From positions 1 to 55,671 of the forward strand of contig JAJRXF010000049.1 in assembly GCA_024276425.1 (NCBI GenBank): DNA of 55,671 nt. Direction: 5' to 3'. Below the pieces are notes generated by a model. That model saw only the letters and a program-made list of their open reading frames with translations, ran no database searches and was not told where the DNA came from. Shown here in pieces: positions 11,135 through 24,529 of the stretch (its first letter is position 1; each line of letters starts with the position of its first letter). Source of the stretch: Actinomycetes bacterium. GTDB taxonomy: Bacteria; Actinomycetota; Acidimicrobiia; Acidimicrobiales; SZUA-35. Position numbers and translations under genes: made by a program.

Positions 11135-12517
11135 ATGTCAGACCGCTTCTTCCCCGTGGATGAACCAATGCTGCAGGAGGTCCTGGACTGGGCATCCCAC
11201 CGGATTGTGAATGGGCCGGATCCCAGTCATGGGGCAGAACCGGCCTCGGCACTGGCGGCGGAACTGGCGGGTTCCATTTGCACGCAAGGAATAGGTGGCA
11301 CAGAGGCCTTGCGGCGATTTACCGAGATCATCGTCCCGGCTACTCGTGCTCAGGACGAGCGGATGAACTTGGCCTATGTGGCCGCCGCTCCGACCCCGGC
11401 CGCCTTGACCTTCGACCTTGCCGTCTCGGCGGCGGAAATCTTTGGAGGGACCTGGGAAACCGGCGCCGGTGCCGTCGCGGCCGAAAATCAAGCACTGGAC
11501 TGGATTGCCGGGTTGGCTGGGTTCCCAAAGTCTGCCGGAGGAACCTTTGTTTCCGGTGGCACGATTGGCAACCTCAGTGCCTTACACGCCGCCAGGGAGC
11601 GAGCCAGGTTGCGCAACCCTCAAGTTCGCCACTGGCGCCTGGCAACAACGGCTTCTGCCCATTCCAGTATTGCTGCGGCGGCCAAGGTGATGGACGTCGA
11701 CTTGTGCCACGTTCTTGGTGATGAACAAGGCCGCATGACCAAATCAGCCCTCGCGGATGCTCTTGGCCAAGATGAGGACATCTTTGCCGTACTGGCCACC
11801 GCTGGAACGACCAATGCTGGTGTGATTGATGACTTGTCTGGTATCGCCAGCCTCTGCGAAGAGCGGGAACTCTGGCTCCATGTTGATGGTGCCCTTGGCC
11901 TGGCGGCCCTGGCGTCGCCAGAGGCCCGCAGTCGATTTGCTGGTATTGAACGAGCAGACAGTTTTGTTGTTGATCCCCACAAATGGCTATTTGCCCCCTA
12001 TGACTGTTGTGCCCTGATCTATCGCAATCCCGCGGATGCTGCCAGTGCACACGCCCAAATCGCCCCGTATCTGGACCAGGTCGACCGTGACGAATGGAAT
12101 CCGGCCGACTACGCCATTCATCTCTCTCGTCGGGTTCGTGGGTTGCCGCTTTGGTTTTCACTCGCGGTATATGGGACCGAGCGCTACGGGGCCGCTATTG
12201 ACCAGGTCCTCCAAACTGTGGCCGCGATTGTCGAAGGCATCGAAGACTCCCCAGACCTGGAGTTGGTAGCAGAGCCTGACCTCAATGTCATCTTGTTCAA
12301 ACGCCCATCCATGTCCGACTCAGAGATGCTTCTTTGGTCCGAAGCCCACCGTCAGGCTGGCACTATCTTGTGTTTGCCGACCACTCATCGTGGCCAGCAG
12401 GTTTTTCGTCTCTGTTTGGTTAATCCCGATACCAAGGCCGAGGAGGTCTTATTCATGGTCCACAGCGATGTGTCCACGACCGGACGGATCAACACTTCTG
12501 GTGCGGAGGAGCCATAG
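11135..12517 (+). CDS. PLP-dependent group II amino acid decarboxylase
   Basis: A 460-residue enzyme of the fold-type I group II decarboxylases (aromatic amino acid, glutamate, histidine decarboxylase relatives). Visible features: VSGGTIGNLSALHAAR, which contacts the cofactor phosphate; ATAGTTNAGVIDDL; HVDGALG with the Asp that pairs with the pyridine nitrogen; and VVDPHKWLFAPYD with the PLP lysine, Lys283. It would turn an amino acid into an amine and CO2; the substrate is not readable. Its TAG stop is followed with no gap by the ATG of the AhpD-like candidate selenoprotein, implying translational coupling. Confidence 0.88.
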   Translation: MSDRFFPVDEPMLQEVLDWASHRIVNGPDPSHGAEPASALAAELAGSICTQGIGGTEALRRFTEIIVPATRAQDERMNLAYVAAAPTPAALTFDLAVSAAEIFGGTWETGAGAVAAENQALDWIAGLAGFPKSAGGTFVSGGTIGNLSALHAARERARLRNPQVRHWRLATTASAHSSIAAAAKVMDVDLCHVLGDEQGRMTKSALADALGQDEDIFAVLATAGTTNAGVIDDLSGIASLCEERELWLHVDGALGLAALASPEARSRFAGIERADSFVVDPHKWLFAPYDCCALIYRNPADAASAHAQIAPYLDQVDRDEWNPADYAIHLSRRVRGLPLWFSLAVYGTERYGAAIDQVLQTVAAIVEGIEDSPDLELVAEPDLNVILFKRPSMSDSEMLLWSEAHRQAGTILCLPTTHRGQQVFRLCLVNPDTKAEEVLFMVHSDVSTTGRINTSGAEEP

Positions 12518-13069
12518 ATGGCCTGGATTGAAACCATCCCCGATGACCAATGGAGCGGTGCACTAGGGGAGCTTTATGAAGAGGTTGTAGACAAACACTA
12601 TGGGCGAGTGGACGAGATCATGGCCATCCACTCTCTGAATCCCCGGGCATTGCGGGCCCACGCAAGTCTTTATGAGTCGGCAATGGCAGGGACAAAGGGG
12701 CTGCGCAAAGTTGAACGCGAGCTCATTGCCCTGGTGGTAAGCCTTGAAAACCAATGCCACTATTGAGTGACTCATCACCGGCGCGGTCTGCGCCAACTGC
12801 TCAAGGATCCCAACCTAGTCACTCGCATCGAAGCGGGTTGGGTCGATGCGGGTTTGTCTGAGGCTCGCGTGGCGATGCTCGGCTATGCCGTCAAGCTGAC
12901 CAAGGCTCCTGGCTCAATCGTCGAGCAAGACGTCCTTCTCCTCCGTCAGGCGGGATTCTCAGACCGAGACATCCTCGACATTGCCGAGGTGACGGCATAC
13001 TACGCATACGCCAACCGCATCGCGGATGGTCTTGGAGTTCCGCTTGAGGGGTGGATTCCCGAAGACTAG
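12518..13069 (+). CDS. AhpD-like peroxidase-related protein, candidate selenoprotein (in-frame UGA as Sec83)
   Basis: Read through one in-frame TGA at 12764-12766, this gives a 183-residue protein of the AhpD/carboxymuconolactone decarboxylase fold (peroxidase-related type). The first 82 codons end SLENQCHY, then UGA, then VTHHRRGLRQLL; relatives read N.C.YC..HH at this point. The redox motif C-x-x-C-x3-H therefore appears as Cys80-His-Tyr-UGA83-x3-His87, with UGA exactly at the resolving/attacking Cys. Sequence similarity to the family continues normally after it (SEARVAMLGYAVKLT, DILDIAEVTAYYAYANRIADGLG). A hairpin with a GGUCU loop follows at the position expected for a bacterial SECIS. 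A simple nonsense mutation is the alternative. No Sec genes lie in this window. Role: thiol/selenol peroxidase or disulfide reductase, inferred. Confidence 0.82.
12764..12794 (+). promoter_or_regulatory. SECIS-like element: UGA codon plus downstream hairpin with GGUCU loop
   Basis: Downstream of the in-frame TGA (12764-12766), 18 bases precede a GGTCT loop at 12785-12789 that is closed by a perfect 5-bp G/C stem, GGCGC (12780-12784) with GCGCC (12790-12794). The well-studied SECIS of E. coli fdhF has the same GGUCU loop sequence at the same 18-base distance from its UGA, as I recall that sequence. This is what SelB needs to insert selenocysteine. Confidence 0.8.
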
Positions 13070-16394: not shown

Positions 16395-17810
16395 CTAATC
16401 GGCCGCATCGATGAGAGCATTCTCGACCACCTCGGTGAGCGCCGGGTGGATATAAAACACCTCGCTGGCCAACTCCGAGGCAGTTTGGCCAAATTGCATG
16501 CCTTGGATGAGGGGTTGGATCAACGATGCCGCCTGTGGTCCGATGATGTGGGCGCCGAGAATGAGGTCGGTTTCGGCATCCACCAGGACCTTCGCGAACG
16601 AGGTTGAATCATCCAGGGCCCAGCCATAGGCAGTACCTCCAAAGTCTCGTCGACCAATCCGATATTGAACACCCTCCCGATGAAGGTCCACCTCGGTTTT
16701 GCCAACGCTGGCAACCTGAGGGCCGCTAAAGACCGCGCTTGGAACGGCCCGGTAGTCGACTTCGCGGACGTCATCTGGGTGGGCAATGTTCCAGAACGCC
16801 ACTTTGGCCTCGGCGTTGGCCACATGCTTGAGTTGAAAGTCATTAGCGACGTCACCAATAGCCCACACGCCGTCCACGCAGGTTCGCATCTGCAGATCAA
16901 CAGCTATGCGGTGCTTCTTGTTGGTGGCCACTCCCCCCGCCTCAACCCCCAGCAGGTCGGTGTTTGGTACCCGTCCGGTGGCAACGAGCAATTCGTCGAC
17001 CTCGATGACCTCGTTTTCAAGGTGTAGCAGCACTGAGCCCCGGTCGGAGTTTTCAACCAGTCTTGGAAGTTGCCCAAGCCGTAGATCGACTCGTTTTGCG
17101 AAAATCTGGGTGAATCGATCAGAGATGTCGAGGTCATGGGCGCTGAGTAGGCAATCCGACCGGTTGAACATGGTGACTTGGCTGCCGTAGCCGGCAAACA
17201 CATGTCCCATCTCGACCGCGATAAAGCCACCTCCGATTATTCCAAGCCGCCTTGGAAGCTGCTCCAAGCGCATGATTGAGTCTGAGGTGTGGTGTCGGGC
17301 GTCGACAAGGCCAGCGATATCAGGCATATTGGGCCGCGAGCCGACAGCCAGAAGAATTTTGTCCGCGGTGATTCGTCGATCACCGACGTCGAGGAGTTTG
17401 TCGGCCACAAAGCGGGCCGTGCCCTGGATCAGGGTCAGGTTGTCGGTTCCGGAGGCCCGGTACTCTCGACCGCCAGCGGCGATCGGATCGATCAGGCCGA
17501 AGACGCGGTTGCGGATTTGTGGCCAATCGACCTCGTGGAAGGTTGCACGAACTCCAAGATGGTCGCTGTGCTTGGCTGACTCGGCGACATCGGCAGGCAT
17601 GACAAACATCTTGGAGGGAATACACCCCCGATTGAGACAGGTGCCGCCGAAGACATCTCGCTCTACCAGCGCAATCTTCCATCCGTCAAAGTAGTCAGGA
17701 ATCGAGTTGCCTGAGCCGCTCCCGATGATAATCAGATCAAAGCGTTCTGGATCTGACTGTGCTGGATCTGACTGTGCTGGATCTGACTGTGCTGGATCTG
17801 TTGTGGTCAT
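16395..17810 (-). CDS. mtr: Mycothione reductase
   Basis: A 471-residue flavoprotein disulfide reductase. FDLIIIGSGSGNSI is the FAD-binding motif in the form typical of mycothione reductase (GSGSGN). The redox-active disulfide is in GGTCLNRGCIPSKM, the NADPH site in LGIIGGGFIAVEMGHVF, and the catalytic His-Glu pair in IHPALTEVVENAL near the C-terminus. It keeps mycothiol reduced using NADPH, the actinobacterial counterpart of glutathione reductase. The first ~20 residues are an unusual threefold repeat of Asp-Pro-Ala-Gln-Ser encoded by a DNA tandem repeat. The start overlaps the upstream DUF983 gene by four bases (ATGA). Confidence 0.88.
   Translation of the reverse strand: MTTTDPAQSDPAQSDPAQSDPERFDLIIIGSGSGNSIPDYFDGWKIALVERDVFGGTCLNRGCIPSKMFVMPADVAESAKHSDHLGVRATFHEVDWPQIRNRVFGLIDPIAAGGREYRASGTDNLTLIQGTARFVADKLLDVGDRRITADKILLAVGSRPNMPDIAGLVDARHHTSDSIMRLEQLPRRLGIIGGGFIAVEMGHVFAGYGSQVTMFNRSDCLLSAHDLDISDRFTQIFAKRVDLRLGQLPRLVENSDRGSVLLHLENEVIEVDELLVATGRVPNTDLLGVEAGGVATNKKHRIAVDLQMRTCVDGVWAIGDVANDFQLKHVANAEAKVAFWNIAHPDDVREVDYRAVPSAVFSGPQVASVGKTEVDLHREGVQYRIGRRDFGGTAYGWALDDSTSFAKVLVDAETDLILGAHIIGPQAASLIQPLIQGMQFGQTASELASEVFYIHPALTEVVENALIDAAD
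17747..17800. repeat. 15-bp tandem repeat, 3.6 copies, inside the mycothione reductase N-terminus
   Basis: The unit CTGGATCTGACTGTG is repeated exactly three times (17747-17761, 17762-17776, 17777-17791) and then for nine more bases. Read on the minus strand it encodes Asp-Pro-Ala-Gln-Ser repeats at the protein's N-terminus. Because the unit length is a multiple of three, copy number changes would not shift the frame. Confidence 0.92.
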
Positions 17811-23503: not shown

Positions 23504-24529
23504 CTAGGCGGAAATGGTCACCTCGGACTCTTCAATTGTGACCAGCGGATGATGACAAGCCACGAAGTGATCGTCGTTGACCCGACGCATCTGAGGCTCA
23601 ACTCGTTCACAGATCTCATCGGCGAAGGGGCAACGGGTACGGAATCGACAACCAGAGGGCGGGTTGATTGGTGAAGGCAGTCCCTCGTCCTCGCTAAGTT
23701 GGCGGTCGATCGTAACCAGGGGGTCCGGCATTGGAATCGAGGTAAGAAGAAGCTGGGTATAGGGGTGAGCCGGATGGGCATACAGCTCATCGGATTCGGA
23801 CACCTCACACATCTTGCCCAGATACATCACCGCCACCCGATCACTAATGTTCTTGACCACCGCCAAATCGTGGGCGATGAAAACGAGCGTCAGGCCATAC
23901 TCGGCCTTGAGGTCCTCCAACATGTTAAGGATTTGTGCCTGGACCGAGACATCGAGGGCCGATACTGGCTCGTCACAGATGATTAATTCGGGTTCGAGCA
24001 CTAGCGCCCGGGCGATGGAGATCCGCTGACACTGGCCCCCGGAGAACTCGTGGGGGTGCTTGTACCGGGCCACATCGGGGTCGATTCCGACCGCGTCGAG
24101 CATGACCGACACCTTGGCCCATTGCTCGTCCTTGTTGGCGGGTCCCCACACCTCTAAGGGTTCGGCCACCACCTCACCCACGGTCCGTCGAGGATTCAGT
24201 GACGACACTGGGTCTTGGAAGATCATCTGCAAGTCGGTGCGTTTCTGGCGCATGGCCTCATTGCTCAAGCCAGCCAAGTTCTCCCCATCGAGAATCACCG
24301 AGCCTGCGGTCGGTCGTGGAAGTTGCAGAATTCCCCGACCGGTGGTCGACTTACCGCACCCGGACTCCCCCACCAGGCCCAGGGTTTCACCCCGCTTGAT
24401 ATCAAAGCTGATGCCACTGACGGCATGGACAACCTTGCCTCGGCCAACGGGAAACTCGACCGTCAGGTCCTCCACGCGGAGCAGGGTTTCCTCTTTAGCC
24501 CGAAGGTGTGCCTTTCCTGAACCAGCCAT
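23504..24529 (-). CDS. ABC transporter ATP-binding protein, DppF/OppF-type
   Basis: About 341 residues. Walker A is GLVGESGCGKSTTGRGIL, the signature LSGGQ appears as FSGGQCQRISIARAL, and Walker B is LIICDEPVSALDVS. The C-terminal oligopeptide-transporter extension with a Cys-containing PSGCRFRTRCPFADEIC segment is present, as in DppD/DppF relatives that can carry an iron-sulfur cluster. The ATG at 24529 has GGAGG six bases upstream; the longer frame to 24673 overlaps the preceding gene too far. Confidence 0.9.
   Translation of the reverse strand: MAGSGKAHLRAKEETLLRVEDLTVEFPVGRGKVVHAVSGISFDIKRGETLGLVGESGCGKSTTGRGILQLPRPTAGSVILDGENLAGLSNEAMRQKRTDLQMIFQDPVSSLNPRRTVGEVVAEPLEVWGPANKDEQWAKVSVMLDAVGIDPDVARYKHPHEFSGGQCQRISIARALVLEPELIICDEPVSALDVSVQAQILNMLEDLKAEYGLTLVFIAHDLAVVKNISDRVAVMYLGKMCEVSESDELYAHPAHPYTQLLLTSIPMPDPLVTIDRQLSEDEGLPSPINPPSGCRFRTRCPFADEICERVEPQMRRVNDDHFVACHHPLVTIEESEVTISA

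Follow-up and report, generated by a model that had tools for sequence, protein, structure and literature searches.

Predicted AhpD-like selenoprotein in an Acidimicrobiia genome and the conservation of its in-frame UGA codon among relatives

AhpD-like proteins with selenocysteine (Sec) in a CxxU motif have been described on several occasions. A survey of the Sargasso Sea yielded 27 AhpD-like CxxU sequences in 2005 (PMC1088965), the AhpD-like 1 and 2 selenoproteins were reported from GOS in 2008 (PMC2398784), and a catalogue of 2026 explicitly lists the CxxU form of TIGR01926 with one example accession (PMC13188914). Furthermore, earlier work counted the Actinobacteria among the selenoprotein-rich phyla (PMC1794560). 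The AhpD-like CxxU selenoproteins of TIGR01926 are thus already known and catalogued, and the first-pass annotation of the locus discussed here was correct in treating AhpD-like proteins as a known class of Cys-to-Sec replacement; a selenoprotein of this kind is not new (PMC1088965; PMC2398784; PMC13188914). A search of the open-access literature found no report on selenoproteins of Acidimicrobiia or Actinomarina.

The locus lies in a window of 55,671 nucleotides, the whole stretch of DNA that was analysed, from a member of the Acidimicrobiia (Table 1). The frame at 12518-13069 (+) consists of 82 codons, TGA, 100 codons and TAG, exactly the two halves split by a single in-frame TGA that had been annotated. 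With TGA translated as Sec, the product carries the motif C80-H-Y-U83-V-T-H-H87. The earlier placement of the UGA at a redox cysteine (C80-x-x-U83-x3-H87) stands, but its description as the second position of the motif has to be amended, since the codon is that of the second Cys of CxxC. The product scores 146.4 bits against TIGR01926 (peroxidase-related AhpD-like), above the curated cut-off of 81.8, and 47.9 bits against Pfam CMD. It has in common with the TIGR01926 CxxU selenoprotein family the NCBI family itself, the CxxU motif, the size class and a SECIS after the UGA, but the Acidimicrobiia-wide Sec-only subfamily and the HHRRGL/GGUCU signature discussed below are not described in the reports cited above on that family. 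NF041238 (AhpD_rel_CFYUT) is likewise AhpD-related, and its CxxU motif has Sec in the second position. However, it is a 357-position model, whereas the protein here has 183 residues, and the product reaches 43.3 bits against its curated cut-off of 175. On the sequence evidence, the frame is almost certainly a selenoprotein gene; within the CMD/AhpD fold it is assigned to the AhpD-like branch TIGR01926.

Table 1. Features of the selenoprotein locus, in window coordinates.
Feature	Position	Strand	Basis or remark
Pyridoxal-dependent decarboxylase gene, adjoins selenoprotein gene	11135..12517	+	Pfam PF00282, 184 bits
Shine-Dalgarno-like GGAGGAG, 6 nt before ATG	12505..12511	+	Sequence
Predicted AhpD-like selenoprotein gene ending in TAG; product of 183 residues including Sec83	12518..13069	+	Translation with TGA as U
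Cys80 codon, putative redox partner of Sec83	12755..12757	+	Invariant in 31-sequence alignment A1
Predicted Sec codon UGA, second redox position of CxxC (codon 83)	12764..12766	+	
Candidate SECIS upper stem-loop GGCGC-GGUCU-GCGCC	12780..12794	+	Loop 12785-12789 begins 18 nt after UGA

As to whether Cys replaces the UGA in close relatives, a point raised in the first-pass annotation, no such case was found. Fifty genes in 49 of the 296 genomes sampled from the class match the gene over nearly its full length at 55-73% identity, and every one of these orthologues has TGA at the U83 codon (Cys codon in 0/50). A separate scan of named genomes, whose titles are mostly Acidimicrobiales, Acidimicrobiia or Microthrix MAGs, found TGA at the same codon in 80 of 80 loci; the two sets overlap. 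These titles also agree with the Acidimicrobiia-type genome proposed at first pass. The TGA form of the subfamily is present in 14 of 39 genomes of the window's own family, the window's own genome not counted, and in one same-genus member of those 14 the gene is divided over two contig ends. The subfamily also occurs in two genomes from other classes of the phylum (L202, L203). Cys stands at the U83 place only in distant homologues, mostly below 40% identity, among them a paralogue in the window's own genome (C73:58308-58745).

In comparison with 47 orthologues, third-position changes dominate on both sides of the UGA, and pS/pN is 0.74/0.26 before it and 0.65/0.27 after it. The half downstream of the UGA evolves as coding sequence and, as judged from these alignments, purifying selection acts on both halves of the frame. 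Under translation table 11 alone the locus falls into one ORF of 82 codons and another of 100, as expected of a pseudogene or of two small genes produced by a nonsense mutation or a sequencing error at the redox Cys. This is contradicted by the recurrence of the TGA at one codon in all members of both ortholog sets, which come from independent assemblies, by the purifying selection on both halves and by a synonymous constraint found at the hairpin only. The probability of such an origin is negligible, and the conservation seen in the alignments already refutes it. Decay in sister strains, which had been named as an observation that would speak against a selenoprotein, was not seen, the UGA being kept at the same codon across relatives.

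The source genome (3.95 Mb in 203 contigs, 96% complete) encodes the machinery for Sec decoding. Its tRNA-Sec scores 65.7 bits against an Rfam cut-off of 47 and is also called by ARAGORN as tRNA-SeC with anticodon TCA. SelB, with a C-terminal SelB winged helix, SelA and SelD all score over their family cut-offs; SelA is encoded on the same contig as SelB, immediately upstream, and SelD has a single in-frame TGA of its own (GAG-U-GCK). A search for selA, selB, selD and a selC tRNA, proposed at first pass, thus recovered all four from the same genome, and the objection that the machinery might be absent does not apply because they are present. On contig C2 of this genome (L110, 1918-5356), selD adjoins genes for the selenoneine synthase SenA (451 bits, NCBIfam cut-off 420) and the selenosugar synthase SenB (302.7 bits, NCBIfam cut-off 300), and the organism probably makes selenoneine besides selenoproteins.

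Sec decoding is common in the Acidimicrobiia, with selA in 201 of the 296 sampled class genomes, and the earlier expectation that a selenoprotein in this class would be notable does not hold, as it is not exceptional at that frequency. Among the genomes carrying the gene, selA was found in 48 of 49 (Fisher p 2e-8); in the exception, G280, the gene is present and selA was not found in a genome that is 84% complete. The presence of an in-frame TGA does not by itself tell which residue is inserted, and the codon might instead be decoded as another amino acid through stop codon reassignment or near-cognate read-through. However, UGA also serves as the terminator in 34 of the 50 orthologues, so the genetic code as a whole is unchanged. 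The presence of tRNA-Sec, SelA, SelB and SelD, the alignment of the site with Cys in distant homologues, the SECIS after the UGA and the co-occurrence of selA likewise argue against another amino acid, which is very improbable.

The SECIS candidate lies within all four limits for bacterial SECIS elements given in Fig. 2A of PMC13188914. The apical loop, GGUCU, has 5 nt (limit 3-9 nt), the upper stem has 5 bp in this gene against 6 bp in the consensus (limit 4-16 bp), the distance from UGA to loop is 18 nt (limit 16-37 nt), and the folding energy is -8.3 kcal/mol (limit -7.5 kcal/mol or lower). A G is expected in the first two loop positions, and the GG is invariant in 49 sequences. The energy refers to the 15 nt of the hairpin (z -2.36); the 40 nt from the UGA fold at -12. 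With the protein sequence held fixed by synonymous recoding, the hairpin of this gene has a z of -2.2 against a class mean of -1.6, with p<0.05 in half of the orthologues, and the Cys homologues lean negative too (-0.6). The energy was therefore dropped as stand-alone proof, being only moderately unusual after recoding, and the case for the SECIS rests on codon freezing, covariation and spacing.

Codon freezing is limited to the hairpin, codons elsewhere in the gene varying among the 50 orthologues. The loop codons are GGT in 48/50 (background 0.28) and CTG in 49/50 (background 0.37), and the preceding Arg is coded CGC in 46/50 (background 0.35). Stem positions pair in 98.0% of cells, compared with 93.1% in shuffled alignments. 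Double-change cells number 10 where 1.3 are expected, a number reached in 0 of 500 shuffles, and the covariation is lost when the partner position is slid. The middle pair of the stem is found as GC, CG, GU, AU and UA. The hairpin resembles the E. coli fdhF SECIS in its GGUCU apical loop and in a loop 18 nt after the UGA. The fdhF element has a bulged U, whereas the stem here is uninterrupted (GGCGC/GCGCC), with no counterpart of that bulge seen. When the 3.95-Mb genome was searched with a covariance model (R1), no second gene with the same SECIS was found, the single match being 12780-12794. Elsewhere in the window, a second TGA at 24027 (+) has 86 open codons before it and 190 after it, and is followed at 25 nt by a weak hairpin with a GGTG loop; it is probably due to chance. 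For the selenoprotein gene, SelB would bind the hairpin (12780-12794) and deliver Sec-tRNA(Sec), and the ribosome would then read UGA83 as Sec. Such decoding of UGA83 through SelB and the hairpin is strongly supported at the level of sequence comparison.

The AlphaFold model of the product has a mean pLDDT of 94.9, and its structure matches are AhpD-like (2prr, Z 22.9; 3c1l, 22.7; 6k40, 22.4). The active site of M. tuberculosis AhpD is formed by Glu118, Cys130, Cys133 and His137. This protein (1knc, 1gu9) shares with the product the fold (Z 11.3 for 1knc against the model) and the Glu...Cys-x-x-Cys-x3-His arrangement, but the two are only about 11% identical and AhpD has Cys instead of Sec. 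In the product, E68, C80, U83 and H87 provide the Glu, the Cys-x-x-Sec and the His at AhpD spacing, and all four are invariant in the 31 sequences of alignment A1. Sec83 presumably occupies the place that the reactive, more C-terminal Cys holds in AhpD (Cys133 in the M. tuberculosis enzyme).

By analogy with AhpD, the product would run through a CxxU redox cycle, with Sec83 as the attacking and Cys80 as the resolving residue. Sec83, standing in place of the reactive Cys of AhpD, would be activated by Glu68 and His87 for its attack on an oxidised substrate, which is probably either a disulfide or an organic hydroperoxide. Cys80 would then resolve the selenenyl group as an Se-S bond, which a cellular reductant would reduce. 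AhpD has an AhpC or lipoamide partnership; none is shown for the selenoprotein here. Downstream of the selenoprotein gene, at a distance of 3.3 kb, is a mycothione reductase gene (16395-17810, -, 582 bits). That the mycothiol system is the reductant of the selenoprotein is a guess. Taken as a whole, the locus is very probably best explained as a Sec-decoded AhpD-like gene, read through SelB and the hairpin, whose product is a CxxU redox catalyst.

A peroxidase- or disulfide-type role, suggested by analogy, is somewhat favoured for this catalyst. The selenoprotein might instead have a task other than peroxide reduction, for example a reductive dehalogenation like that of Bmp8 or a step on the amine produced by the neighbouring decarboxylase. 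The debrominase Bmp8 does share the fold (Z 19.0, 16-17% identity), and within the genus the decarboxylase gene keeps its place beside the selenoprotein gene. However, the closest sequences and structures are those of peroxidase-related AhpD-like proteins, and the decarboxylase was not found beside the gene outside the genus in the loci examined (those of the family, 29 from the class and 80 named ones). A role of this other kind is rather unlikely, though it carries appreciable weight.

The decarboxylase gene adjoins the selenoprotein gene without a gap, as first annotated, its TAG ending directly before the selenoprotein ATG, and co-transcription of the two is probable. In G687, the one same-genus genome tested, a decarboxylase of 76% identity stands beside the gene, and DUF952 and metallo-beta-lactamase genes are also kept on the downstream side. 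Decarboxylase homologues occur elsewhere in the order. The operon was considered as a functional clue and ruled out, being found only in same-genus G687; because it is shared with no locus outside the genus, the neighbour says little about function, and the pairing is most readily taken for an operon at the level of the genus. Among other neighbours no widely shared cluster was found, the commonest short clusters being the gene's own shadow frames.

Sec is also predicted in other groups of AhpD-like homologues. A second Sec subfamily (clade B) is paralogous, at about 35-46% identity, and has TGA at the same codon. Its hairpin differs (GATCTCC-GGTC-GGAGATC, with the loop about 25 nt after the UGA) and shows weaker covariation, which rests on one pair. 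Genomes of about 1 Mb in genus g66 (L065-L067, L115-L118) have a clade-B gene with an in-frame TGA and a GATCTCC-GGTC-GGAG hairpin, most of them together with selA; these genomes may be Actinomarina-like. The tree unites, with support, both main Sec groups and a third, small one, with a single long Cys branch at their base, and places two other Sec pairs among Cys rows. The tree needs three label changes, the exact number being uncertain given the long branches. Four sequences with TGA at the redox position (L086, L087, L210, L211) group among Cys homologues, which suggests separate gains or losses of Sec. Also, an AhpD-like frame with TGA on a very long branch (L215; G497:C142:25410-25847) has Ala in place of the partner Cys (TAHY-U), and is possibly a Sec-only active site without a resolving Cys.

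Strict conservation of Sec, with no Cys form, across a large uncultured actinobacterial group seems not to have been described. What is new is the Sec-only subfamily through the Acidimicrobiia, the count of selA in the sampled genomes, and the second Sec subfamily, whose range extends to 1-Mb genomes. In each genome with the gene, a standard annotation would miss it or break it in two, and CxY-UGA-..HHRRGL with a GGUCU loop offers a signature for finding it. With Sec in all 50 genes and Cys in distant homologues only, the subfamily is a good test case for the retention of Sec over Cys, and it is the Sec-only pattern across the class that deserves further attention. It is conceivable, though doubtful, that clade A (the subfamily of the Acidimicrobiia and close actinobacterial neighbours) is Sec-obligate, with Cys never accepted at the active site. 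If so, its chemistry would go beyond that of Cys, its substrate perhaps not being an alkyl hydroperoxide, and clade A would help to maintain Sec decoding in a large uncultured class.
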